A DNA stretch of 64,000 nucleotides, taken from positions 3,596,001 through 3,660,000 of the forward strand of contig NC_060252.1 of assembly GCF_921293095.1 (NCBI RefSeq), written 5' to 3'. Position numbers and translations under genes: made by a program. This stretch comes from Ischnura elegans. Its lineage: Eukaryota; Arthropoda; Insecta; Odonata; Coenagrionidae. Below, piece after piece: positions 4,000-19,813 of this stretch. The notes below the pieces were generated by a model that saw only the letters and a list, made by a program, of their open reading frames with translations, did not search any database and was not told the origin of the DNA. Every line of letters starts with the position of its first letter. The first letter of the stretch is position 1.

Positions 4000-5809
4000 T
4001 AGGACCATAGCAAGAATTTTTATCATACAGACTGTCCCAAGGGTCGTGTGTCATTTTTGACCTGTAATTTTAATAACTTTGCATGGAGCAATATTCATGA
4101 AAATTGTCACACTTATGGGGAAAGGTCCTAAGTTTTGTTGAGTGTAAGCAAAATTTTACAATTTTGACCTCACAAAGTAGGTCCAAACCAAAAATTTGAA
4201 TTTGCCTTATGGGGTTTCAATGTTAAAAAAATCGAGATAGACAAAAGTGTGAATTTCATTGACCGATTTGTCAATTCTTAGGTTTTCGGACACGAGAAAA
4301 CCGAAAATAACACTTTTATTTACGAATATTCAACCGTTGACCCAGTAAGGTCACCGTCAAGGTCATAAGGGTGCGAAAAATCCACAGAGAAAAAATCATT
4401 CGCCTTGACCGGGATTCGTGATTTTTTCTCTGTGGATTTTTCGCACAATGTGCATTGCGGGTGACTCCCGTAAAAGTTATCACCGTGGCTAGTCCCGGTA
4501 TACTTAAATTCGTCATAAGGGTGGCAAAAGGAATAGCATACCAACAAAGGTGTCGATCCATGGGTTTTGTAGGGTGCCCAAGTCATTGTTATTGTCCAAA
4601 TACCCGTATTATTCACTAATTGACCTCCGAGGGTCACCACGGGGGTCAAAGGTCATAGAGTTAAAAGTCGGGCAATCATAAAAACCAAGGGGTCAAACCA
4701 TAGGTTTTGAAGGGTGCCAAAGTCGGTTAGGGTGTTCGTAGATCCGTATTGTTGATTTTTTGACCTCCGAAGGTCACAATTGGGGTCAAAGGTCATAGAG
4801 TCAAACGTCGAGCCATCACGACGAACAACCTTTGGTTGGGGACATTAGTTTTCCTATTATTTAAAAACATACCTCTATGACCTCTGACCCCATTGTGACC
4901 CTCGCTGGTAATAAAAAGTCGACAATATGGATTTAAAAACAGCAAAACTGACTTGGGCACCCTTTAAAACACATTGTTACACTCTTTTGCTGTCATGGTG
5001 GGCCGATATAACTCTATGACCCTTGACCCCCATTATGACCTTCGGAGGTCAAAATATCAACAATACGGATGTACGAACAGCCTAACCGACTTTGGCACCC
5101 TTCAAAACCTATGGTTTGACACCTTGGTTGTCATGATGGCTCGACGTTTGAGTCTATGACCTTTGACCCCAATTGTGAACTTCGGAGGTCAAAAAATCAA
5201 CAATACGGATCTACGAACACCCTAACCGACTTTGGCACCCTTCAAAACCTATGGTTTGACCCCTTGGTTTTTATGATTGCCCGACTTTTAACTCTATGAC
5301 CTTTGACCCCCGTGGTGACCCTCGGAGGTCAATTAGTGAATAATACGGGTATTTGGACAATAACAATGACTTGGGCACCCTACAAAACCCATGGATCGAC
5401 ACCTTTGTTGGTATGCTATTCCTTTTGCCACCCTTATGACCTTGACGGTGGCCTTACTGGGTCAACGGTTGAATATTCGTGAATAAAAGTGTTATTTTCG
5501 GTTTTCTCGTGTCCGAAAACCTAAGAATTGACATATTGGTCAATGAATTTCACACTTTTGTCTATCTCGATTTTTTTGACATTGAAACCCCATAAGGCAA
5601 ATTCAAATGTTTGGTTTGGACCCACTTTGTGAGGTCAAAAGGTCAAAATTGTAAAATTTTGCTTACACTCAACAAAACTTAGGACCTTTCCCCATAAGTG
5701 TGACAATTTTCATGAATATTGCTCCATGCAAAGTTATTAAAATTACAGGTCAAAAATGAAACACGACCCTTGGGACAGTCTGTATGATAAAAATTCTTGC
5801 TATGGTCCT
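4000..5809. mobile_element. Foldback (long inverted repeat) element with GTAT target duplication
   Basis: The outer sequence AGGACCATAGCAAGAATTTT at 4001 is mirrored at 5790-5809, and the two arms match almost base for base over about 680 bases. The flanks are GTAT at 3996-3999 and 5810-5813, a likely 4-bp target duplication. Toward the middle the arms contain a tandem unit of about 141 bp with the sequence GACCTCCGAAGGTCA or close variants. The left arm holds 150 extra bases between two 12-bp direct repeats GTCATAAGGGTG (4362 and 4512), so the right arm probably lost that piece by recombination. It encodes no transposase. It split a THAP-like exon. Confidence 0.9.
4371..4446. repeat. Perfect 28-bp hairpin inside the foldback left arm
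   Basis: GTGCGAAAAATCCACAGAGA and the following eight bases are mirrored exactly after a 20-base loop, giving a 76-base stem-loop. It lies wholly within the segment missing from the right arm, so it has no partner there. Confidence 0.85.
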
Positions 5810-6151: not shown

Positions 6152-6390
6152 CCAGTGAGAAATGGGTGGTGGAATCCACGTGGAACCCACGTGGAAATTA
6201 CGGTGGAGATTAGGTGGAAATGTAACGTGGATACCACGTGTTTTTGGAATCAACGTGAAATCCACGTGGAAATTTGGTGGAATCAACGTGGAACCCACGT
6301 GGAAAGTTGGTGGAATCAACGTGGAATCCACATGGAAATTTGGTGGAATCAACGTGGAACCCACGTGGAAATTTGGTGGAAAAATTAAAA
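6152..6390. repeat. 33-bp CACGTGG minisatellite at the left transposon end
   Basis: After the terminal CCAGTGAGAAATGGG, a 33-base unit (AACGTGGAACCCACGTGG plus AAATTTGGTGGAATC) repeats about four times, preceded by partial units. Because 33 is a multiple of three, five overlapping frames stay open on both strands and yield 11-residue peptide repeats. These are artefacts of the repeat. The same sequence begins the element at 16754. Confidence 0.9.
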
Positions 6391-6524
6391 TAGCCGTAGG
6401 TGCTCCCCCAAAACAATTAAACCCTCGACCACTATGTACCTGTTGCATTGGATTGTACGTATTGGTACTGTGTACCATGCAAATATGCCAAATACACAGG
6501 AGCTAATTATAGCTAATGTCCTTC

Positions 6525-6556
6525 CTTATACCATTCCAAAGTTGGAATGGTATAAG
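6525..6556. repeat. 15-bp perfect palindrome
   Basis: CTTATACCATTCCAA, two bases, then its exact reverse complement. It lies between the minisatellite and the 3' end of the DUF4806 gene. Function unknown. Confidence 0.8.
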
Positions 6557-6738
6557 CTAGAGAATACATAGAGAATGGTCAGGAAGTTAAGAATTCTAAC
6601 CAAACAATTTTTAGATAGCTCTTATTGGTGATTTTACCCATGTGTATTGCCATGATTTGGTTCATCTAATCAATTTTTAAATAAGTTTTAATGTAAATAA
6701 TAAGTTTAAATTTAAATGTTTCAAAAATGAGAAAACAC

Positions 6739-6744
6739 TTTATT
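6739..6744 (-). promoter_or_regulatory. Poly(A) signal of the DUF4806 gene
   Basis: AATAAA on the minus strand, about 50 bases past the stop codon at 6793-6795, correctly placed for the last exon of the gene. Confidence 0.6.
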
Positions 6745-6792
6745 AGTAAAGTATTTTAAAAGTTTCAATCTAAAAAAATTTAATATAACAAT

Positions 6793-8669
6793 TTAAAGTC
6801 TTCCATTCAATTCAATATCATCATAATCATCTTCGTCATCATATTCATCATCTTCATCGTCGTCACCTTCCTGCTTCCTTTTCTTAGCGTATTTCAGCCA
6901 ATTTTTAATGGCTGACTCAGCCACAACCAGATCACTTTCAGGGTGTTTCAACAGAATTGCACCTGAAAAGAAAACCTTTTTTTACTTAGACCATAAAAAC
7001 TGAAGTGAATAACGGAGGAGAATATATATGTTGAGTCACTTAAAGCTTGCAGCATATATCAAGAATTGTTGTCCCTTTAAATTCTAAATTTATTGGTGAA
7101 TATTGTAAGAATGCCATTGAATTATGTATAAGGAAAAGAGTATGCTGGTTAAATATCATTAAATTTGATTATCATGGTGGCATCCTGATGATATGCAAAG
7201 GGTAAGATATTCTCTGAAGGATGATGAAAAATAATCTTATTGTTACGATTTAAAAATGATAATCAAATAAACTGAAGCTCACTATAGCATACATTAAATA
7301 TTTATATCAACAGATATTTACCCAATAATGAGCAAGCTATTTAACTTAATCTCTTTCATCTTTAGCTACTCACCAAGAATTACTTCTTTTAAGCGAAGTT
7401 TATTAAATGCCTCTTTTGGAGGTTTGCCATTATAATTGAATTCTACTGCAAGTTTATTTGTCATAATTTTTCCCATCATTACAGATATAGATTTTGCATC
7501 ATTTTGCAGTACATAGCAGCTTAGGTAGTCCATCTAATAATAGAAATATATATGTATATATATATATCAGAGTATACCTTCTCATATCACCAAATTTGTA
7601 AAATTAAAATTTGAAATTGAATAAAAAAGCAGAATATCATCAGCAACATGTGTTAAGTTTTAACTTTCAGTCGTTTGGTCTATGAAATTAAATCATGTAA
7701 TACATAACATTTATACATACAGTAGCAGCAAAGTTTGACTTATTGTCCAGGAATCTTTCCATTTTCTCCAGTTTGACGTGAGATGTCACTGGAAAGGGTG
7801 GCAGGTTAGGAGGTCTTTCGACTCTCTTCAATGCAGGAGTTAATGTTCTATTTGTCTGGGCCTGATTCATTACCAGGATGTCCATTTTGCTGTTTAGCAA
7901 ACTAATAATTTTTCTCTGGCTTCTTAGTTCCCTGAGAACAACATCCAAAGTACCTAAAACATAAAATTGAAATATTATTCATTAATTACATGTGGAAAGT
8001 AGCATTCGTTTAATTAAAAAAGCAAATGTTAAGATTACCTTGCAAATCATCAACATTTTGTAGGGGTTGGCCAGTATCATTTCTGCCAATTTCTTGTGCA
8101 GCTACGTCTTCACCAGAGAAAGGCTGAAAATTACTGCTTCTTATTTTCTGCCTTTTTGCATTAACTGGCTCATCATTTTCCATCGATTCGCCCTTTTTTT
8201 CATTACTACACCCAATTCCTGTCTTTTGAATTGTGCTTTCAGCCTTCCTCCTTCCACTAGCAGTTGAAGTTGACGGCTGGTTATTATCAGCCTTCTTATG
8301 ATATTTGGGAACTGCTATTTCCTTGTCAAAAAAATGTGGCGGTGGATTCACTTTCTTTGAATTATGACTATATTCATCCTCAGCAGAGGATGATTCATCA
8401 TATCTCCTCTTTCTTTGTCTCCTCCTCTTGCCACATTCGTCACTCTCAAGGTTTGACGTCTCTTCAGCAAGCCTTGCCCCTTGCCTTGCTTCTAGATATG
8501 AGGCTGCAATTAAAATCCAGACATTAAAAGATAAGAAAATACAAACAGGATTTAAAGAAATAACTCAACCTTAGCCTTGACTTACCATAATACCGTTTCA
8601 AAATTGCTGAGTGAAGAGTCCAGTCACTCTGCGGACCAGTCTCCTTCCTTGCCATTTTTGTTACAAGAT
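6793..8669 (-). pseudogene. DUF4806 protein gene, downstream part (five exon pieces)
   Basis: The coding blocks, in transcription order, are 8669-8586 (rest of a split exon), 8503-8039, 7953-7721, 7533-7374 and 6962-6793 (stop TAA). All have GT/AG junctions and compatible frames. The first part continues the N-terminal piece at 12670-12817. The middle is a charged, low-complexity linker with KRRRQRKRR. The last three exons read RPPNLPPFPVTS, KMERFLDNKSNFAAT, then EFNYNGKPPKEAFNKL and SAIKNWLKYAKKR, the pattern I know from the DUF4806 domain. The protein ends in an acidic Asp/Glu tail. The family has no firmly established function and often occurs in transposon-linked proteins. Two 2-kb insertions split the upstream exon, so the copy is probably inactive unless they are spliced out. 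Confidence 0.75.
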
Positions 8670-8672
8670 TTG

Positions 8673-10648
8673 GGCTGCTATTCTGGATGGAATAGCATTA
8701 TGCTATTCTCCGATATTGCAACCGATGTTGCTATAATATAGCGTATTGCAACGCCTATGCTATTTGGTATTCAGAACGGTTGCAATTCGTGTTTTTACTA
8801 CACCGGAAGACGTAATTCTCAGAATAGCATAGGCCCGTAGCAATTCACTATTCTGAACGGCGAATTGCAACCGGTAGGCTTGCTATAATATTACGCGGTC
8901 TTCGAGGCCGACCTATTCGGTATTGCAACCCAGAAAACGTGCGCATTGCGATGTCGAATTGTTTTTCTGAGGTTAAAGTAACATAATCAAGTATTGAAAA
9001 ATGGAATAATAGCCAAAAATAAAATGATATCAGCTTTATTTTAATTAAATAATAGAAGCATAAGTGATGAATATTTAACTAGTTAAGTGAATTGGTTAGA
9101 AATTAACATTCGAGCTTAATATATGAAGCACAAGCTTGCTTCAACGAGAATTACTACGATTAGACCAAATTTTCCGTGTTTTATTCATATTTACAACTCA
9201 TAATTTTATTTCATCACTTGACTTGCTACTAAAAATATCCTCAATATAGGCTATGAGGTCGATTCTTGAAAATTTTCAAGATTGTGTTAACAGACTAACT
9301 CGCCAAATATAATAACAGTTATAGCTTTCAATGAAAACCATATATTACCATAATAATACCATATACTTTGATCAGCCGTTCATTTCCTCAATTGGACAGT
9401 ATATACAAATACATGCAACGAGTCGAAATTGTTTTCCCCACTATTCGCTACCTTCTACAATTAAAACTTAAAATTTACTAAATTATAACGGGCAGTCGAC
9501 TTGAAATACTTGCTTGAAAACAAAGGATTTCTCCGAACACCAATAAAGTTTCCGAACAAATATGATTCACCACAAACGTTTAATGGAATATTCATGTACA
9601 TCATAAACGCAATATATATCATGTGGAATTCAATACAAATTGTTTCCTCTATAGCCAAGCAAGTTATTCACACAATTAATTTTCAGTATATCGGCACAGT
9701 TCAGGGTCTATAAAAAATTTCAATGAGCACATTAAAATCAGCTGATACGAAAACAATGATAACTGACACAACAGCACTTTCCACACGATTCACTATTGCT
9801 AGATTCACTTTTTCACAGCTGTTCCATCATCCTCAAATTCACCATCACCTCCCTCTGCTTTTTCCAAATCTGCAGCTGAAATATCGATACTATTCCATCG
9901 TAATACATGAAAGCACAGCTGTGACGTTGCCACCTACTTCAGTTCCTAAACAGAGATTGAATACTGAAATTAGGGAGTCATATAATATAAAGTTGGTATT
10001 AAAAACGAAAGCTTCTAGTCCATACAATAAAGCTATATCGTCACGATCAAAGCAATAAAAGTTGGTACATATTTATTTTGACATGCAACGAACAGACAGA
10101 CTTCGAAGCCTAAGACAATTACGAAGAAAATCCAACATATTTAGCTTTCAATGATTATTTCGCATAACATATATCTCACGATAAAGGACCGATCGGATAT
10201 AGGTAAATGATTCAATATATATGCCCGATAAATCATCATTATAACAGTAAAATTATGACCTAACCCACCTGTCTGAAGCCATTGTGATATCAAAACAACA
10301 ACAATCAGCTGATTTCATAAACAATATTTTCAAAGCGTATTATATAAATCCACGGTTTAATATAATTTTTAAATGCAAATGAAGCAATTATTTTTAATTG
10401 CAAGTCAATATTCCATAAAATACAGAAAAATATATAAAATATCTTCTCCCTCATTGGTTGCGCAAACTGTTCAGAAAATTTTTCATACGGGAAGGGGCGG
10501 AGCTTCCAAATAGCTCACGCAAGAAATAGCATGCTGCTATTCCGAACAAAATTATTACTACACGTCATTCTGAATACGGGGTCGTTGCAATAATGACCCG
10601 CAGAATAGCATATGCTATTTTTTGCAACGCTTATCCAGAATAGCAGCC
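8673..10648. mobile_element. Non-autonomous DNA transposon, copy 1 of a tandem pair
   Basis: The TIRs read GGCTGCTATTCTGGAT at both ends, followed by AATAGCAT/ATGCTATT palindromes. TTG precedes copy 1 (8670-8672) and follows copy 2 (12667-12669), and CAG lies between the copies (10649-10651). Length is 1976 bp. The 3-bp duplication fits PIF/Harbinger or a CACTA relative, but no transposase is seen. Internal open frames are short and differ between the copies. Confidence 0.85.
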
Positions 10649-10651
10649 CAG

Positions 10652-12666
10652 GGCTGCTATTATGGACGGAATAGCATCATGCTATTCTTCGATATTGCAA
10701 CCGATGTTGCTATAATATAGCGTATTGCGACGCCTATGCTATTTGGTATTACGAACGGTTGCAATTCGTGTTTTTACTACACCGGAAGACGTAATTCTCA
10801 GAATAGCATAGGCCCGTTGCTATTTACTATTATGAACGGCGAATTGCAACCGGTAGGCTTGCTATAATATTACGCGGTCTTCGATGCCGAGCAATTCGGT
10901 ATTGCAACCAGAAAACGTGCGCATTGCGATGTCGAATTGTTTTTCTGAGGTTAAAGTAACCTAATCAAGCATTGAAAAATGGAATAATAGCCAAAAATAA
11001 AATGATATCAGCTTTATTTTAATTAAATAATAGTAGCACAAGTGATGAATATTTAACTATAGTTAAGTGATTTGGTTAGGAATTAACATTCGAGCTTAAT
11101 ATATGAAGCACAAGCTTGCTTCATCGACAGTACGAAAACAATAACAATTAATGCAAAGAATTACTACCATTAGCCCAAATTTTACGTGTTTTATTCATAT
11201 TTACAATTCATAATTTTATTTCATCACTTGACTTGCTACTAAAAATATCCTCAATGTAGGCTATCAGGTCGATTCTTGAAAAATTTCAAGCTTGTGTTAA
11301 CACACTAACTCGCCAAATATATTAATAGTTATAGCTTTCAATGAAAACCATATATTACCATAATAATACCATATACTTTGATCAGCCGTTCATTTCCTCA
11401 ATTGGACAGTATATACAAATACATGCAACGAGTCGAAATTGTTTTCCCCACTATTCGCTGCCTTCTACAATTAAAACTAAAAATTTATTAAATTATAAAC
11501 ACGGGCAGTCGACTTGAATTACTTGCTTGAAAACAAAGGATTTCTCCGAACACCAATAAAGTTTCCGAACAAATATGATTCACCACAAACGTTTAATGGA
11601 ATATCCATGCACTACATCATTAATGCAATATATATCATGTGGAATTGAATACAAATTGTTTCCTCTATAGACAAGTAAGTTATTCACACAATTAAGTTTC
11701 AGTTTATCGGCACAGTTCAGGGTCTATCAAAAATTTCAGTGAGCACATAATAAAATCAGCTGATACGAAAACAATGGTAACTGACACAACAGCACTTTCC
11801 ACACGATTCACTATTGCTAGATTCACTTTTTCACAGCTGTTCCATCCATCCTCAAATTCACCATCACCTCCCTCTGCTTTTTCCAAATATGCAGCTGAAA
11901 TATCGATACTATTCCATCATAATACATGAAAGCACAGCTGTGACGTTGCCACCTACTTCATTTCCTAAACAGAGAATGAACACTGAAATTAGGGAGTCAT
12001 ATAATATATAGATAACATTAGAAACGAAAGCTTCTAGTTCATACAGTAAAACGATATCGTCACGAGCAATACAATAAAAGTTGATACATATTAATTCTGA
12101 TATGCAACAAACAGACTTCGAAGCCTAACACATTTACGAAGAAAATCAAACATATTTAGCTTTCAATGATTATTTCGCATAGCATATATCTCACGGTAAA
12201 GGACCGATCGGATATAGGTAAATCATTGAATATTTATGTCCGATAAATCATCATTATAACAACGAAATTATGACCTAACCCACCTGTCTGAAGCCATTGG
12301 GAAATTATCACAACCACAACAAACAGCTGATTTCTTAAATGAGATTTTCAAAGCGTATTATATATTTCCAAGGTTTAATATAATTTTTAAATGTAAATAA
12401 AGCAATTATTTATAATTTCAAGTCAATATTCCGTAAAATACAGAAAAATATATAAAATATCTTCTCCCTCATTGGTTACGCAAACTGTTCAGAAAGTTTT
12501 TCATACGGGAAGAGGCGGAGCTTCCAAATAGCTCGCGCAAGAAATAGCATGCTGCTATTCCGAACAAAATTATTACTACGCTTCATTCATAATACGGGGC
12601 CGTTGCTATAATGACCCGCAGAATAGCGTATGCTATTTTTTGCAACGCTTATCCATAATAGCAGCC
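10652..12666. mobile_element. Non-autonomous DNA transposon, copy 2 of a tandem pair
   Basis: This is a 2015-bp direct copy of 8673-10648, highly similar throughout, with terminal GGCTGCTATTATGGA and its inverse. A 60-codon minus frame at 11704-11886 is not preserved as such in copy 1, so I do not call a gene. It ends inside the DUF4806 exon at the TTG duplication. Confidence 0.85.
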
Positions 12667-12669
12667 TTG

Positions 12670-12817
12670 GAGGAGTACTTTGTGGAGGCCAGTATATTTG
12701 TATTTTCTCTTTTGCTGAAGGTCGTCCATCTTTTTCAGAAAAATTAATCCACTTAGTTGGTGCAGCAAAAAACTCTACACCATCAACATCCTCACCTTGA
12801 AACTTCACCACCACAAA
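12670..12817 (-). pseudogene. DUF4806 protein gene, N-terminal exon
   Basis: The exon starts after the acceptor TTTTTTTCAG at 12818 and reads FVVVKFQGEDVDGVEFFAAP, then a KWIN and a YWPP motif. This is the usual beginning of DUF4806 proteins (a short beta-rich block ending in WPP). It breaks at the TTG duplication. Removing the two insertions restores an open frame into 8669, which reads PPNLVTKMARKETG. The start codon is not certain. A donor-like GAG|GTAAAC follows the transposase stop at about 12924, so an upstream exon may be shared with the transposase transcript. Confidence 0.7.
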
Positions 12818-12948
12818 CTGAAAAAAGGTGATAGTGACATAAGTAATAATTAGATTAATAGATAATTTAAATTTGTTGGCATTCATACATTTATGAATTA
12901 CTGCTGCAAATATGATACATGTTAGTTTACCTCAAAATGAAATAAATG

Positions 12949-15273
12949 TCAGAAAGAATGAAGAAGAGGAATGCAAAGGAATCCGTCATCATCATCAGGT
13001 AGTAAAACACATTTGGATTGGACGTCATTGAAGTCAAAGTGCAATGTTCTGCCATCAAGTCTGTTAACTTTAAGTATGCCCAACTTAGATGAGTTTAAAG
13101 GATAATGATAGAAATCATCCTGCCAAAGAAACTTGTTTCCAACAAGTATCACTTTTCCTTCCTGACTATGCACAATATTTTTAATGATAATAATATCACC
13201 GGACTTTGTTCTGCAGCATGAATCATACTTTCTTTTTGTATTGTAAGTTATCCTATGATATTTTAACTTTTTGTACTGGATTCCTGGCACATCTTCAAAG
13301 GGATTTTTAAGTTTATGGATTAATTTAACATCATTTTGTGGCTCACTCAGAATCTTTTTCCTATCATCTCTTTGAAGTTCCCTGAATGCTAGCTGTTGCA
13401 GTGGTTTGTGGCCAGATCGGAGAGATTCTTTCAATGATTTCAATTTATTTTCAAATTTAAATGTTGAAAATTCCTCCAAAGCGCCATGTTCACGACATTC
13501 ATTTCCTAAATGCTTTAGTGAATGGACATTATACGAGATGAAACGTTTGCCATAGGTTGATGCACAATGCTTAATAAATGCCTCCAACAATTCTTCTGCC
13601 TTCTCAATGTTCTCATTTTGCTGGACATGATAAGGGCTTGCTAGAATGAAAATGGCACAATGGAGAAGTAAAAACTGCTTGTAAATGTTCACATTAAATG
13701 CTCTATGTTTGAAAACTAACATGCCATCATAACAGAGAAGGCGTCTCCACTCTGTTCCCTTATAAAGTTTCCACTCCTGAAGGTTTCTTGGGGGTCTATT
13801 AAATTCACATGGAAAGCATGACTTGATTGACACAAGTTTGTCAGAAATTTCAGAGAATGCATTTCTATTTAGTTTCCATGGACCTGGCCACAAAATCCAT
13901 GCCCCTACAAGCCTCTTGAAAACTCCCCCGTACACTAAATGGAAGCTATCCAATCGGAACTGAGAAACCATACCAGTTCCAATTTGTTCCAATGGAGTTC
14001 TCCATTCACCATTATCATGATCATCAATATCTGCACCAGGGGCATGAAGATGGTGTTCTAGTTGGTCTCTTCTTTGAAAAGATTCATCTGTGCGAAGAGG
14101 ACAATTAAGCTCTGCATATGTCACTCGGTCCTCCACCCACTCACCAATCACAGTACACTTTTCACATGCAGCATATCCAGTGTGACCTTTGCATTGTTTA
14201 ACGAAAGCTCTGGCCGGAGCATCAAGAATATAGTGACGAATGCGAAAAGGAAAAATCCTTCCATCATATTCATAACCTCCTTCCATGAGCTCCCCAGCCT
14301 CTTTCACAAAATCATTCAGGAACATATTTAAATTTTCAGGCTTACCTTTACCACAAAAAACTGTGATTGGAAAAGGCACCTGATATTTACCAGCAAGACA
14401 CCCCAAAATAGGCCAAAACTCGGTTCTAGAGCTGGTGTGAAGAGGGAGTCCATCTATATTTATATCTATTATAATTTCCTGGTGTGAATGCAGGTATTTC
14501 CAAGTCAAAATTTTATTTAAACTTTCACGAATTCCTCTGTACCACAATTTGCCATTTCCTATGCTTTTGATTGGGATGCTCTTTGGTGTGTTGAAAAGAG
14601 TTTTATAGCTAGAAGGCAGAATAGGATACAAAGGCTTAAGATAAAACAACAGTTCATCAATTTTCCTCATAGGAACTCCCGATGACCCCCACTTTCTCAA
14701 AGATTCTAGTAGATATTTTACTTTGTCATCTTCATCATGAAATATCCCTGCTTCATCCATATTACCATTACTACCATCCTTTTTAAAACTCTGGTCAGGC
14801 ATATTTATGCCAGAAAATTGTGATTCAGGCAAATGACTATAACCACCTGAAGTTGAAGAGCTGTGGTGAGACTCAATGTTATCAAAACTATTTTCACTGC
14901 TGATTTGTGGGTTCAACTGCTCACTTTCACCTGAGGTAAGGGGATCAAATTCGGCACTATTAGCACTTCCACTGTCGCTTTGAATTTCTGATTCCAGGTG
15001 GGATGAAAAACTCCTCTCTTCATTGATAAATTCTTCCCTCTCATTTCTTCTTAGTTCTTGAACCCATCTTTGCACTTTGCTTGCTGCAGCAACTAGCCTA
15101 GATTTTTCACTAGATATTTTTTCTGCTCGCCGTTTTAGCGCTCGCTCGAAACCCTCGAATATACAAGAAAGAACAATATTTTTAGATAATACTGATAAAA
15201 TGATTGAAGAGAGAATGGTACTGATAGTCAAGCACTTCATGCTCTCCTCAAAATGCACAAATGGTGAAGACAA
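12949..15273 (-). CDS. Tnp2/CACTA-like transposase, intact 774-residue ORF
   Basis: A single uninterrupted minus-strand frame. The first 45 residues are hydrophobic and probably not native, so the real start may be near residue 45 or in an upstream exon. A basic segment (RALKRRAEK) and a Ser/Glu-rich linker follow to about 175. The conserved core includes DINIDGLPL with FWPILG (about 266-294), GKGKPENLNMFLNDFV (about 305), ILDAPARAFVKQCKGHTGY with two Cys pairs (about 348-372), CPLRTDESF, and MVSQFRLDSFHLV (about 430). YNVHSLKHL to KFENKLKSLKESLR (about 592-635) resembles DUF4218 of plant CACTA Tnp2 proteins. Its likely role is cutting and joining element ends in the nucleus; the DDE assignment is inference. 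No frameshift or stop is present, so it may be young or maintained. Its neighbour is the DUF4806 gene, same strand. Confidence 0.7.
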   Translation of the reverse strand: MSSPFVHFEESMKCLTISTILSSIILSVLSKNIVLSCIFEGFERALKRRAEKISSEKSRLVAAASKVQRWVQELRRNEREEFINEERSFSSHLESEIQSDSGSANSAEFDPLTSGESEQLNPQISSENSFDNIESHHSSSTSGGYSHLPESQFSGINMPDQSFKKDGSNGNMDEAGIFHDEDDKVKYLLESLRKWGSSGVPMRKIDELLFYLKPLYPILPSSYKTLFNTPKSIPIKSIGNGKLWYRGIRESLNKILTWKYLHSHQEIIIDINIDGLPLHTSSRTEFWPILGCLAGKYQVPFPITVFCGKGKPENLNMFLNDFVKEAGELMEGGYEYDGRIFPFRIRHYILDAPARAFVKQCKGHTGYAACEKCTVIGEWVEDRVTYAELNCPLRTDESFQRRDQLEHHLHAPGADIDDHDNGEWRTPLEQIGTGMVSQFRLDSFHLVYGGVFKRLVGAWILWPGPWKLNRNAFSEISDKLVSIKSCFPCEFNRPPRNLQEWKLYKGTEWRRLLCYDGMLVFKHRAFNVNIYKQFLLLHCAIFILASPYHVQQNENIEKAEELLEAFIKHCASTYGKRFISYNVHSLKHLGNECREHGALEEFSTFKFENKLKSLKESLRSGHKPLQQLAFRELQRDDRKKILSEPQNDVKLIHKLKNPFEDVPGIQYKKLKYHRITYNTKRKYDSCCRTKSGDIIIIKNIVHSQEGKVILVGNKFLWQDDFYHYPLNSSKLGILKVNRLDGRTLHFDFNDVQSKCVLLPDDDDGFLCIPLLHSF

Positions 15274-16753
15274 ACAACACTTTTCTTTATCTTAAAAAAA
15301 TGGGCAGAGGAACAAGAAAACACATGGAAAGACGAAACTTAGCGGTCACATTAAAAGTCATTAGTAATTTTTCAAGTCATTTGTCTGTATATACCCAACA
15401 GTAAGTTATAATTAATAGCCACCGTAGAAAATCATGATGTAGATGTAGATTGATGGGAATAAAACAGATCATCTCTTGCTCACTTAATTAACTTTGAAAA
15501 TTGTATAATTGTCTGTTCTTTATAAGAAAATAATTTAGGTACTCCAAAAAACATAATGGTATTATGATTTCATTATTTAATACTCACAGGTTTAGCGTTT
15601 TCCATCCTTCCCCTAAGGCAAAACGATGACTTCGGATTCTGGATTTATTAGCTATCAGACTTTATTAGCTAAATGATCGTCCACACGTTCTGAGAAAATT
15701 ATTAGCGTTGATCTGGTTAATCCAAACACTGCTGTAGGGCAATTCAGTTATAACTGTTGACGTGGTTGCTAAGGTGAAAAATATTGCATTGTTGCTATTC
15801 GCTTAGCCATTTCGAATATCGCGCCCGTGGTCGCGCCGCGAGTTTTGTGAACTACGACGACCGTTGTCAACGAAAAGTTTCCCCGCGTAAACAGCAGACC
15901 ACAGCAGGCGACGGAATAATATATATTATAATAACATACTGTAATATATGTTATGTATTTACATTGCCGTGCGAACAGTAATGTTCATTATCGTTGTGGA
16001 CGTAGTTTAATTTCGTTCAAGTAGTGTTTATGCATATTTAACTGCATATATCACGTAATTTACATCGTTCTTGTCTAGCATATAATTCTCAGGTTCTCTT
16101 TTCGGAATGTACCTTTTCGAGTTGGAGGTAATGTTATCTGTCTGTGTGCAAATGTTTTTTTTTTTTCATATTTGTCGTTATCATCCGCTTAATATATTAT
16201 CTCTCGAGTAAGCTACATATTTTCTACCATTTATCTAATTGGATACTACTTGGGCTGAAAATGTGTTGACGTATATTGTTTTTAAACCATGTTTACAAGA
16301 CGTTTTCCCGTCATCTGCTTCACTAATTGTAGATGTTGCTGAGCGTAGATATTTTAATATATAAATGTATTAAAAATAGCTACACTTGAATGAGAGTGAG
16401 AGTTTAGTGGTGTTATTCAGGGCAATCCTACCTCGGACGTATGAAATATTGAATTGTCCTAAATTCGTATTACGTAAATTGATTTTAAGTATGTTTTATT
16501 AGTCATAGGATAGTCGTAATAATTTCACAAATGTCGTGTTAAAAACTCTATTATAAATTCATCGATTGTTTTGCTCCGGTATAATCCAAATAATAAGATA
16601 TCATTGCCATAATCATGGTATAATGTAAAGCATATATATACTATAGATGAATATTAGTGTAGATTCAAATGGCGAGTTCGGAGCAGGTTTCAAGAACTTA
16701 GGATACAGTATACTAATGTCACTTCTAATACAGAGGAGGCAAACAACTTGTAG
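15274..16753. other. No gene; possible 5' region of the transposase gene
   Basis: No protein frame with family resemblance was found. A more GC-rich patch at about 15790-15920 could be a promoter of the minus-strand genes. The rest is AT-rich with short A/T runs. Confidence 0.4.
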
Positions 16754-17246
16754 CCCAGTGAGAAATGGGTGGTGGAATCCACGTGGAACCCACGTGGAAA
16801 ATTAACGTGGATACCACGTGTTTTTGGTCGTGGAATCAACGTGGAACCCACGTGGAAATTTGGTGGAAAAATTAAAACAGCAGTTGGTGCTGTCCTAAAA
16901 CCATTAAAACCTCAACCACTCTATATCTAAACCTTCTATATACCTATGTGTCTACGATTTTTCATGTGCTCTCATGGCTGCCTTTCCACGAATTATATAA
17001 AAATAGAATGTGCGATTCATTTTCACATAACTAGCGTGGTTTCAGGATGATAAATGACGCAATGTCACCAGAGAGTTAAGTTCCACAAATTAGAAATTCT
17101 GTTTAACATTTTATGATAATCACCACAAATCCACTTGAAATCAACGTGGATTCCACGTGGGTCCAACCACTCAATATCCACCACCACCAAATATCCACCA
17201 CTCAACGTGGATTCCACGTGGATTCCACCACCCATTTCTCACTGGG
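16754..17246. mobile_element. MITE-like derivative of the CCAGTGAG element
   Basis: It begins CCCAGTGAGAAATGGGTGGTGG and ends with the inverse. About 200 bases from the left end match 6152-6460, including the AATTAAAACAGC region that follows the minisatellite. The right 120 bases carry mirrored CACGTGG sites. Length is about 493 bp with no coding. The flanks read GTA-G and GTA-T, so the exact target duplication (TA or GTA) is unclear. Its right edge abuts the Harbinger copy that starts at 17247. Confidence 0.8.
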
Positions 17247-19813
17247 TATGAAATAAATGTTGATCAAAGGCAATAATCTAGCTACTTGAACCTACATTTT
17301 CATCACACGCTATTTCGTTACTCAACTATTTACCTCCCCCAAACTTCTGTTCCTGGCAGGGTATTCGGACAAACTTCCCGTTGGAACGCTGGTCAGGTTA
17401 CCCATCATCCCCTAACCGCTAGACCAGTGGCGGCTCGTGAGTCAAATGCTAGGGGGGGCGCACTCCACCGGGGGGTCATAATTTTTTAATATTTCGTGTA
17501 TTTTATTAAGTTTTTACGGCAATATAGGATTTAAATTCTGTGATGCCATACGTTCCGTTTTTTTCAACAAAAATACCTAGTTTTCCTAATAAAGCTTGAT
17601 TAATAAATACTAAATGCAGTAGACTCTCGGTCATACGGATCGGCTTAGTCCGGACTCTCGATGATACTGATCAATGATCTTGAAGAATAAAAATATATTT
17701 GCTGCTATATTTTGCAAATACAAACGAAAATACGTAACTTTAGGTTTTAGCGTCTACATTCTTCGTGCGGATATGCCCGCAATACACTTCTGTTGTTCGT
17801 TTTGCAATCATAATGCGTCATTTGTCAAATCTATACAACATTTGCAATGATTTAGGTAGCAATGACACTTGTAACACCTGAGGAGGGAGGAGAGTGTCAC
17901 TGACTTCCACTAGGCAACAAACACTACTAGAATGCGCGCGCTTTGCTATTGCAGATGTAAATTTTGATGGCGGTGTTCGCGTTGCTTCTTGAATACAGTA
18001 TGATTTAAAATCAACAATTAGACATTTTTCACACATTTTTAACAAAATATGAAATACTCACAGGCCTTTAGTTATATTGCAAAAGTCCTTCCTTCTTTCA
18101 TTTTGTCCAGCAAAGTGATCAATTACACGTTCGTTGAAATCAGCGCTGGACAACAATTTCTTTCTGATTGAACACATGGCAAGGGCACTAGTCTATAAAT
18201 AAACAAGGGACGACACAAAATAGGCCGACGAAAAATACGACCAAAGAGAACAAGGTGCCTGGACACAGAATTGGGACAATTTTTCCCTATATTTCCCTTA
18301 AAAAAACGAGCACTGTTGATTAATTAAAATTGTCTTCTTGAATGTACACACAGCACTAAGAAACTTCTTAATCGGCAATTACGCACAATTAACTCCTCGA
18401 AAATTATGTCTGAACTCATTTCACTCCGTTCTTTCCGAGAGTCTTGCCGTTACTATAAGGACGACTCAAGTGAGATAGAAGTCGTGGTCCACTAATGCTG
18501 ATTCAGCTGAGGGACGAATTTAAGGTCAGCAAAGGCATTCAAGCAAACAAAGGACGTCACGGACCATCTCCTTGAGTCTAAGATTCATATGTGGTAAACA
18601 CACGAGACGCCAACGGGTCGCATTTGGATTAACCGTGTCTTCGAAATCATTGCCATGATATAATAGAAAATAAGTTCTAGATCGTAAAAGAAGACGACTC
18701 GACTGAGCCACAGATGGGAGCTGTAAGGATTTCCGCACTGATATGAACTCTTCGAGGCCACTTAAATCAGACATAAGTGGGCATTTTCCGTCAGACAGCT
18801 ACCGCTCTGCCGCTGAGGAATTAGGTGAACATGAACTAATACAACAAGGACGGCTAGAAAAATGATGAACCTACACACAAAAGGTGCATTGTACGCGGCA
18901 TTTCATGACATTAATTGAATGACTCTATTTAAAGTCGCGCTTAACGATTTAAATTATATTTAATCCTTCACCCTATCACGCACTCAACTATTTCTTAAAT
19001 TATAAATCAGTGGGGAATGTTAACTGATTTTTCCTAATACTGCAGGTCTTTTGATAAATTTATCTGAAAAATAGGTACCGCATATCTAATCATCGGGAAG
19101 ATATGAATAAATTGTTAAGGCCTAAATATTATAATATTAGTTTCCCCAAGGTTCTTGAAATTCGTAATCATAACATAACTGTGTCAAATACTCGAGAATA
19201 GTTTTCCTACATCAATACGGCCTTTAACTGGTTGGATTTTATGTGTTCCGGAATTCAAACACCAAAAAACGCAAGCATAATGGGATAATTTATTTACTGT
19301 AGCAATACCTACCAGTAATTAAAAATTAAAATCGTATAACTACACCCAGTACAGTGACCATTCTGATTCCGTACGCCCCTTTTCTGTGGCAGCACCAAGT
19401 AGACGCCAGATTATACGCCCGCCGGCCTGCGCAGCGATGTCAGCTCACTCGTCGCTCTGCGCATTTTCGGACGACGTCCCAAGACTTCCATAAGACACAA
19501 CGTTAGACGCGTCATAGCACCAGCGGCCCCCACCACTACCACTCTCCATATAACTGCATGGGGATGGATTGGGACGTTCTGGCCAGCGCCCCACGGCTAC
19601 AAATACGAACTTCTCGCGCTATTTCTTTTCGTGTTTTTCCAACACTTTCGATGTATGGGACTGAAAAAACGCTTTGATTAATCAGATGTATAATTATAAA
19701 TTAATGGATATATTTTTTTTTTTACTTTTTCAAATATTTGGGAGGGGCGGCGTCCGAGAGTCCTTATGGGCAAACCGCCACTGCGCTAGACCCTTCGTAG
19801 TGGAAACAAGGCA
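17247..19813 (-). mobile_element. Truncated Harbinger copy split by a hAT element
   Basis: 17247-17424 plus 19792-19813 match, in reverse complement, the left end of the complete Harbinger element at 24283. The TIR CGTAGTGGAAACAAGGCA ends at 19813 and is followed by TTA (19814-19816). The other end is cut at the CCAGTGAG element. The interruption is the hAT element at 17425-19783. Confidence 0.85.
17425..19783. mobile_element. hAT (Buster-like) element with perfect 8-bp duplication
   Basis: The TIRs start CAGTGGCGG. The flanks are CGCTAGAC at 17417-17424 and 19784-19791, an identical 8-bp duplication with a central TA, as in Buster-type hAT elements. Length is 2359 bp. I see no hAT transposase. 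The interior has a GC-rich promoter-like patch (about 19370-19600). It also has a minus-strand reading frame from an ATG near 18180 ending at a good donor (CTG|TGAG or G|GTGAG-like) near 18060. Captured host sequence is possible but unproven. Confidence 0.92.

Follow-up and report, generated by a model that had tools for sequence, protein, structure and literature searches.

A candidate two-gene TRC-type transposon of the damselfly Ischnura elegans that pairs a transposase with a DUF4806 protein of predicted BEN type

We analyzed a 64,000-nt stretch of the 1.72-Gb genome of Ischnura elegans (C7:3596001-3660000, referred to as the window), which contains a transposon with a transposase gene followed by a gene for a protein with the domain DUF4806 (PF16064). 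We consider it probable, at roughly 0.7, that this element is a two-gene animal transposon of the CACTA type (TRC), encoding a DDE transposase and a BEN-type DUF4806 protein that binds dyads near the element ends, much as TNPA does. The DUF4806 domain occurs in insects, Hydra, and zebrafish without an established role, and the linked transposase, the predicted fold, and a 10-bp candidate target for each family make it a testable DNA-binding partner.

Pairing of the transposase and DUF4806 genes

The transposase-DUF4806 pair is old, and the pairing has been kept across diverged families. The 18 transposase loci that were chosen without regard to DUF4806, from 58 rows listed, comprised the window copy (W), copies A, B, and C (on C5, C19, and C4), loci D to H, eight further loci (I to K and M to Q), and a copy of the P family on C1. 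DUF4806 accompanied the transposase at 17 of them, and at 20 of 21 when C3, C12, and L054, which were noticed through their DUF4806 matches, were added. In D, E, F, G, and H, tblastn placed DUF4806 exons downstream of the transposase and on its strand. The eight further loci were distinct transposase matches with 33-45% identity, and their downstream stretches of 3.5-3.65 kb were read with a DUF4806 profile built from damselfly, ant, thrips, and beetle sequences. This search gave 14 exon matches at E<=0.0043, all on the transposase strand, versus a best value of 0.018 in five shuffled sets. DUF4806 exons were found in I, J, M, N, O, P, and Q, with N and O resting on one exon each and I being close to G, a member of the profile. 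The exception in the pairing was K, in which the profile search found no DUF4806 exon in the downstream stretch.

The converse search, with the copy-C DUF4806 protein against the genome, gave 46 exon matches in 14 loci. At 12 of these, a listed transposase on the same strand preceded the DUF4806 exons by no more than 10 kb, the distance over which the first-pass annotation had suggested testing for co-occurrence. The other two loci were L053, a deletion derivative with a transposase remnant, and L054, with a decayed transposase upstream; DUF4806 thus stood downstream of a transposase at 13 of the 14. The first-pass annotation would have been contradicted by DUF4806 genes consistently found without this transposase and without arrays of CACGTGG. 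The pairing answers the first part, and the second was too narrow because the related families carry other dyads.

The spread of DUF4806 in other species was judged on few proteins because the DUF4806 protein searches gave only two and three proteins at E<=0.001. In the ant Camponotus, a single gene model (P0078) contains both transposase and DUF4806 (E 3.4e-8, 34.1 bits; cut-off 25). The match was below the cut-off in Temnothorax P0069 (3.3e-4, 21.4 bits) and in the thrips proteins P0090 and P0094 (0.094 and 0.054), and the long proteins P0079, P0053, P0040, and P0085 had no DUF4806 match when scanned.

The two genes and the predicted BEN-type domain

Both genes are read from high to low coordinates (Table 1). 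The unbroken minus-strand open reading frame (ORF) of 774 codons described earlier is open at 12949-15273 from a TTG start, and copies A, B, and C differ from it by 0, 1, and 1 amino acids. The NCBI model of the window transposase (LOC124162203, P0004) has 740 amino acids, and a short first exon was placed upstream of the ORF because P0004 begins MENAKP and continues GFERALKRR. The exon was present in A, B, C, E, and W and was not found in D. Across 50 aligned proteins, picked from 120 listed, the acidic residues D317 and E574 were present in all 50 and D240 in 48. The window protein had a single, weak Pfam match, to DUF4218 (E 0.077), and at E<=0.01 P0004 matched neither Transposase_21 nor DUF4218. 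At the same threshold Transposase_21 was detected in 6 of the aligned proteins (best 5.8e-4) and DUF4218 in 18.

As had been described, the second gene follows on the same strand, with its first detected exon starting at 12817, about 130 bp past the transposase stop. In copy C its five exons are open for 420 codons, and the product matches PF16064 (E 5.2e-6, 27.1 bits; cut-off 25); the copy-B gene has one base fewer in a T run. The window gene is broken, because two elements in tandem, 92% alike, with terminal inverted repeats (TIRs) beginning GGGCTGCTATT, interrupt coding exon 1. Both are absent from copies A, B, and C.

The DUF4806 domain is predicted to fold as a BEN DNA-binding domain. In sequence searches of the PDB, profiles of DUF4806 and of the transposase gave no convincing match, and the DUF4806 domain had no sequence-level match to known BEN proteins. 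The available text of PMC11075544 calls DUF4806 a BEN subtype, citing Pan et al. 2023. No transposon link appears in the accessible parts of three of the papers naming the domain, and the literature searched, with Pan et al. 2023 outside the search, gave no link of BEN or DUF4806 to CACTA transposons.

The acceptor of DUF4806 exon 1 (CAG/TTTGTG) is in phase 0, as is transposase exon 1. Because the splice phases match, the MENAKP exon could serve as the first exon of both mRNAs.

Table 1. Features of the transposon in the window
Feature	Position	Strand	Basis
Whole CACTA/TRC-type transposon, ~7.1 kb plus a 4.0-kb nested insert	6152..17246	-	B and C align over 17246->6152, the insert apart
5' end block, a complete 493-bp MITE with both TIRs and CCACGTGG sites	16754..17246	.	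TIR arms 16754-16798/17202-17246, 96% complementary
Transposase exon 1 (MENAKP), then GTGAGT, phase 0	15588..15605	-	P0004 N-terminus
Transposase exon 2 with D240, D317, E574 (P0004 numbering)	12949..15153	-	open ORF, conserved acidic residues
First part of DUF4806 gene exon 1 (FVVVKF...WPPQSTPP), up to the nested insert	12667..12817	-	translation, acceptor CAG/TTTGTG
Nested ~2-kb TIR element 2	10651..12666	.	repeat comparison, sequence
Nested ~2-kb TIR element 1 (GGGCTGCTATTCTGGAT)	8672..10649	.	92% repeat of element 2
DUF4806 gene exon 1, second part	8586..8670	-	translation, sequence
DUF4806 gene exon 2, basic and acidic stretches	8039..8503	-	translation
DUF4806 gene exon 3, start of BEN-like domain	7721..7953	-	DUF4806 match, residues 287-356 of spliced copy-C protein
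DUF4806 gene exon 4, BEN-like domain	7374..7533	-	translation, domain match
DUF4806 gene exon 5, stop and acidic tail	6793..6962	-	translation
3' end with TIR CCAGTGAGAAATGGG and arrayed CCACGTGG/TCCACGTGGA sites	6152..6441	.	repeat and motif searches

Subterminal dyads in related families

CACGTGG occurs 26 times in the window versus 3.1 expected, a number reached by none of 100 shuffles, and 22 of these matches fall in 6176-6368 and 16779-17221, as expected from the dense arrays reported at both ends. Of the CCACGTGG matches in the window, 10 lie in the two end blocks and one lies outside them. CACGTGG is specific to the window family; in related families the dyads have other sequences. In family F (47% transposase identity; TIR CCCAGGGAGAACACC), AAGACGTCTT is present nine times, always within ~710 bp of the ends. 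Family G (43%; TIR CCCAGTGAGAAATGG) has four copies of TCGACGTCGA within ~155 bp of the ends. Family P (34%) is a 5.2-kb element defined from two copies, with TIR CCCAAGCAG and the target site duplications (TSDs) TT and CA. Its six AATG-NN-CATT dyads show four different centers.

The candidate target dyads are TCCACGTGGA in W, AAGACGTCTT in F, TCGACGTCGA in G, and AATGNNCATT in P. The best dyad of 4-2-4 form was counted 4, 8, 4, and 6 times in W, F, G, and P, respectively, and none of 200 dinucleotide shuffles reached these counts; internal segments had at most two copies. Counts for spacings other than 2 bp were likewise higher than in shuffles for families W, F, and G. For P, only the 2-bp spacing was reached by 0 of 200 shuffles; spacing 1 was reached by 1 of 200.

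Further nested elements near the transposases of J, K, and H were not counted with these four families, as no genes of their own are known. In J and K (L026/L027), another TIR element (CCCTATTGGAAATTTC) follows the transposase at the same position, with the dyad TCTTATAAGA, TCTT-AT-AAGA. In the H region on C17, a nested element with TIR CCCAGTGAAAATTTTGTATAC occupies 12878-18329 (coordinates of the joined stretch in transposase orientation) and is densely set with TTGTATACAA dyads.

Element ends, copies, and mobility

The anatomy and recent movement of the element are evident from its copies. The homology of B and C spans the window from 17246 to 6152 except for the 4-kb insert, at 99.1-99.5% identity, and the printed flanks beyond it differ. 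The element ends begin CCCAGTGAG and are flanked by 2-bp TSDs: TA for W (with the right end one base short), AA for B, TA for C, and TA for the older copy D. Elsewhere the TSD was AT for L053 and, by eye, AC for F; none was seen for G. L053 (C7:84149400-84155000) has an internal deletion that joins transposase residue 107 to DUF4806 exon 2 and keeps both ends. Full copies with different ends would have spoken against the first-pass annotation; W, B, C, and the derivative L053 instead share their ends and have 2-bp duplications.

The terminal motif CCAGTGAG has three matches in the window, at 6152, 16755, and 17238-17245 on the minus strand. This count alone is weak evidence, as 5 of 100 shuffles reached it, and the inverted repeat at these ends extends to 44-45 nt. 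Identical ends had been proposed at 6152 and 17246. The other copies confirm both termini, but there are three termini rather than two, because the 5' end block is itself a complete miniature inverted-repeat transposable element (MITE). It is 90-96% identical, end to end, to the 6 genomic MITEs compared among 20 fetched. B, C, and L053 have the same block and use its outer CCAGTGAG terminus as their end. The block and the rest of the element move as a unit, because these copies and the window share the block at one junction.

The exact 22-bp terminus was found 687 times on one strand of the genome and 695 times on the other; the reversed control was not found. Among 100 termini listed, 41 inverted pairs delimit 448-589 bp, 2 span 1.9-2.1 kb, and 14 termini had no partner among those listed. 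Twenty of the 43 listed pairs were fetched, 18 on C1 and 2 on C2, and 19 had a perfect 2-bp duplication of varied sequence, the exception being the 1.9-kb L052.

Proposed mechanism and alternatives

In the mechanism that we propose, the DDE transposase would recognize the terminal CCCAGTGAGAA. The DUF4806 protein would bind the 10-bp subterminal dyads (TCCA-CG-TGGA in the window family) as a dimer through its BEN domain and so bring the two ends together, and it would presumably be needed for transposition. It probably also controls the element's own promoter, the job of TNPA in maize Spm/En. In-phase splicing would connect the MENAKP exon to one of two partners, the transposase ORF or, skipping this ORF, the DUF4806 exons. 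The gene pair would act in trans on internally deleted copies and on the large MITE family with the same ends. We infer dyad binding, dimerization, synapsis of the ends, the shared exon in DUF4806 mRNA, and mobilization in trans from sequence and predicted structure.

No left terminus was found for copy A, of which the right end is present. The idea of a strict palindrome preceded family P, and the 4-2-4 wording with a free center was adopted after P had been seen, which slightly lowers our confidence in this mechanism.

An unlikely alternative is that DUF4806 is a BEN-type regulator, involved in repression, chromatin, or target choice, that acts outside the end-joining complex. BEN proteins are described as transcription or boundary factors in the available parts of PMC6911014 and PMC6317261, that of PMC11075544 raises the possibility that DUF4806 genes have a role in chromatin, and one of the arrays lies at the promoter end. 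However, the arrays stand at both element ends and are kept in MITEs of 448-515 bp, too short for either gene, as expected of cis sites for movement.

It is more improbable still that the CACGTGG arrays are sites for host basic helix-loop-helix (bHLH) factors that drive or silence the element, with DUF4806 not the binder. CACGTG is the canonical E-box and the arrays are dense beside both ends, but the same gene pair occurs with the non-CACGTG dyads of F, G, and P, and W and G share the terminal CCCAGTGAGAAATGG while their dyads differ. It is scarcely credible that the termini at 6152 and 17246 belong to unconnected pieces of MITEs that flank two host or decayed genes by chance: the 5' block is a complete MITE by itself and copy A lacks it, as well as a detected left terminus, but the composite recurs in B, C, and L053, each time in another place with other flanks and a 2-bp TSD.

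Comparison with known systems

Plant CACTA elements have a 3-bp TSD and the TIR core CACTA. The element described here differs in its 2-bp TSD and in TIRs that start with CCC (CCCAGTGAG in W and G, CCCAGGGAG in F, CCCAAGCAG in P); the plant-type core was not found at its ends. By anatomy, as far as sequence indicates, it belongs with the animal TRC branch. The available text of DeMarco et al. 2006 (PMC1636069) describes CCC termini (CCCAGTCAAC in Aedes), 2-bp TSDs, a Transposase_21-related transposase, and splice variants for SmTRC1 and the Aedes and Tribolium TRC elements. Those variants yield further proteins, which were reported there as not detectably conserved, in contrast to the conserved DUF4806/BEN partner and dyad arrays described here.

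The proposed element also resembles maize En/Spm (TNPD and TNPA) and soybean Tgmt*, which according to the available parts of PMC2613891 combine a tnp2-type transposase with a second product that recognizes subterminal repeats (TNPA in Spm/En), have nonautonomous deletion derivatives, and have subterminal motifs that differ by family. The internal deletion of L053 resembles defective Spm elements. Nothing in this analysis makes TNPA a BEN protein.

In its predicted fold the DUF4806 domain is like BEND6, Insensitive, Bsg25A/Elba1, BANP, and BEND3. These BEN proteins are host regulators, not transposon genes, in contrast to DUF4806 here. The Insensitive site TCCAATTGGA can be compared with TCCACGTGGA: TCCA-AT-TGGA differs from TCCA-CG-TGGA in the two central bases alone (PMC6911014, available text).

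New here are the identification of the partner with its predicted fold, the conservation of this protein, and the rule that the dyads follow. If the DUF4806 protein binds the ends, the second protein of CACTA elements in animals, which had no reported conserved partner in 2006, would be identified. The pairing also suggests a way for BEN-type regulators into host genomes. Caution is needed where insect annotations show expanded families of DUF4806 genes, as these may be transposons. A more speculative extension, which we regard as rather unlikely to hold in full, is that animal CACTA elements have in DUF4806 their missing counterpart of TNPA and that to bind transposon ends is what this BEN branch originally or mainly does. 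Regulators of the host with a BEN domain, Insensitive among them, and chimeras such as LOC124170148, would then be descendants or captures of a binder of TCCA-CG-TGGA-like sites.

Host gene capture and other repeats

NCBI isoforms of LOC124170148 (C13:9265000-9284400; L017, L018; P0001, P0002) carry a ZAD zinc finger according to precomputed Pfam. The predicted isoforms join a host exon to the DUF4806 exons of element E and skip the transposase. The last host exon (residues 187-231) lies 3.1 kb upstream of the left TIR of element E, and the ZAD exons are outside the fetched stretch. It is possible that these predicted isoforms represent domestication of transposon DUF4806 exons, and they show a route for the domain into host genes.

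Elsewhere in the window, positions 1-2459 are a satellite array with a 114-bp period and a self-identity of mostly ~96-98%. A large inverted repeat at 4001-5809 has arms that are ~81% alike, with the inner part at 98%.
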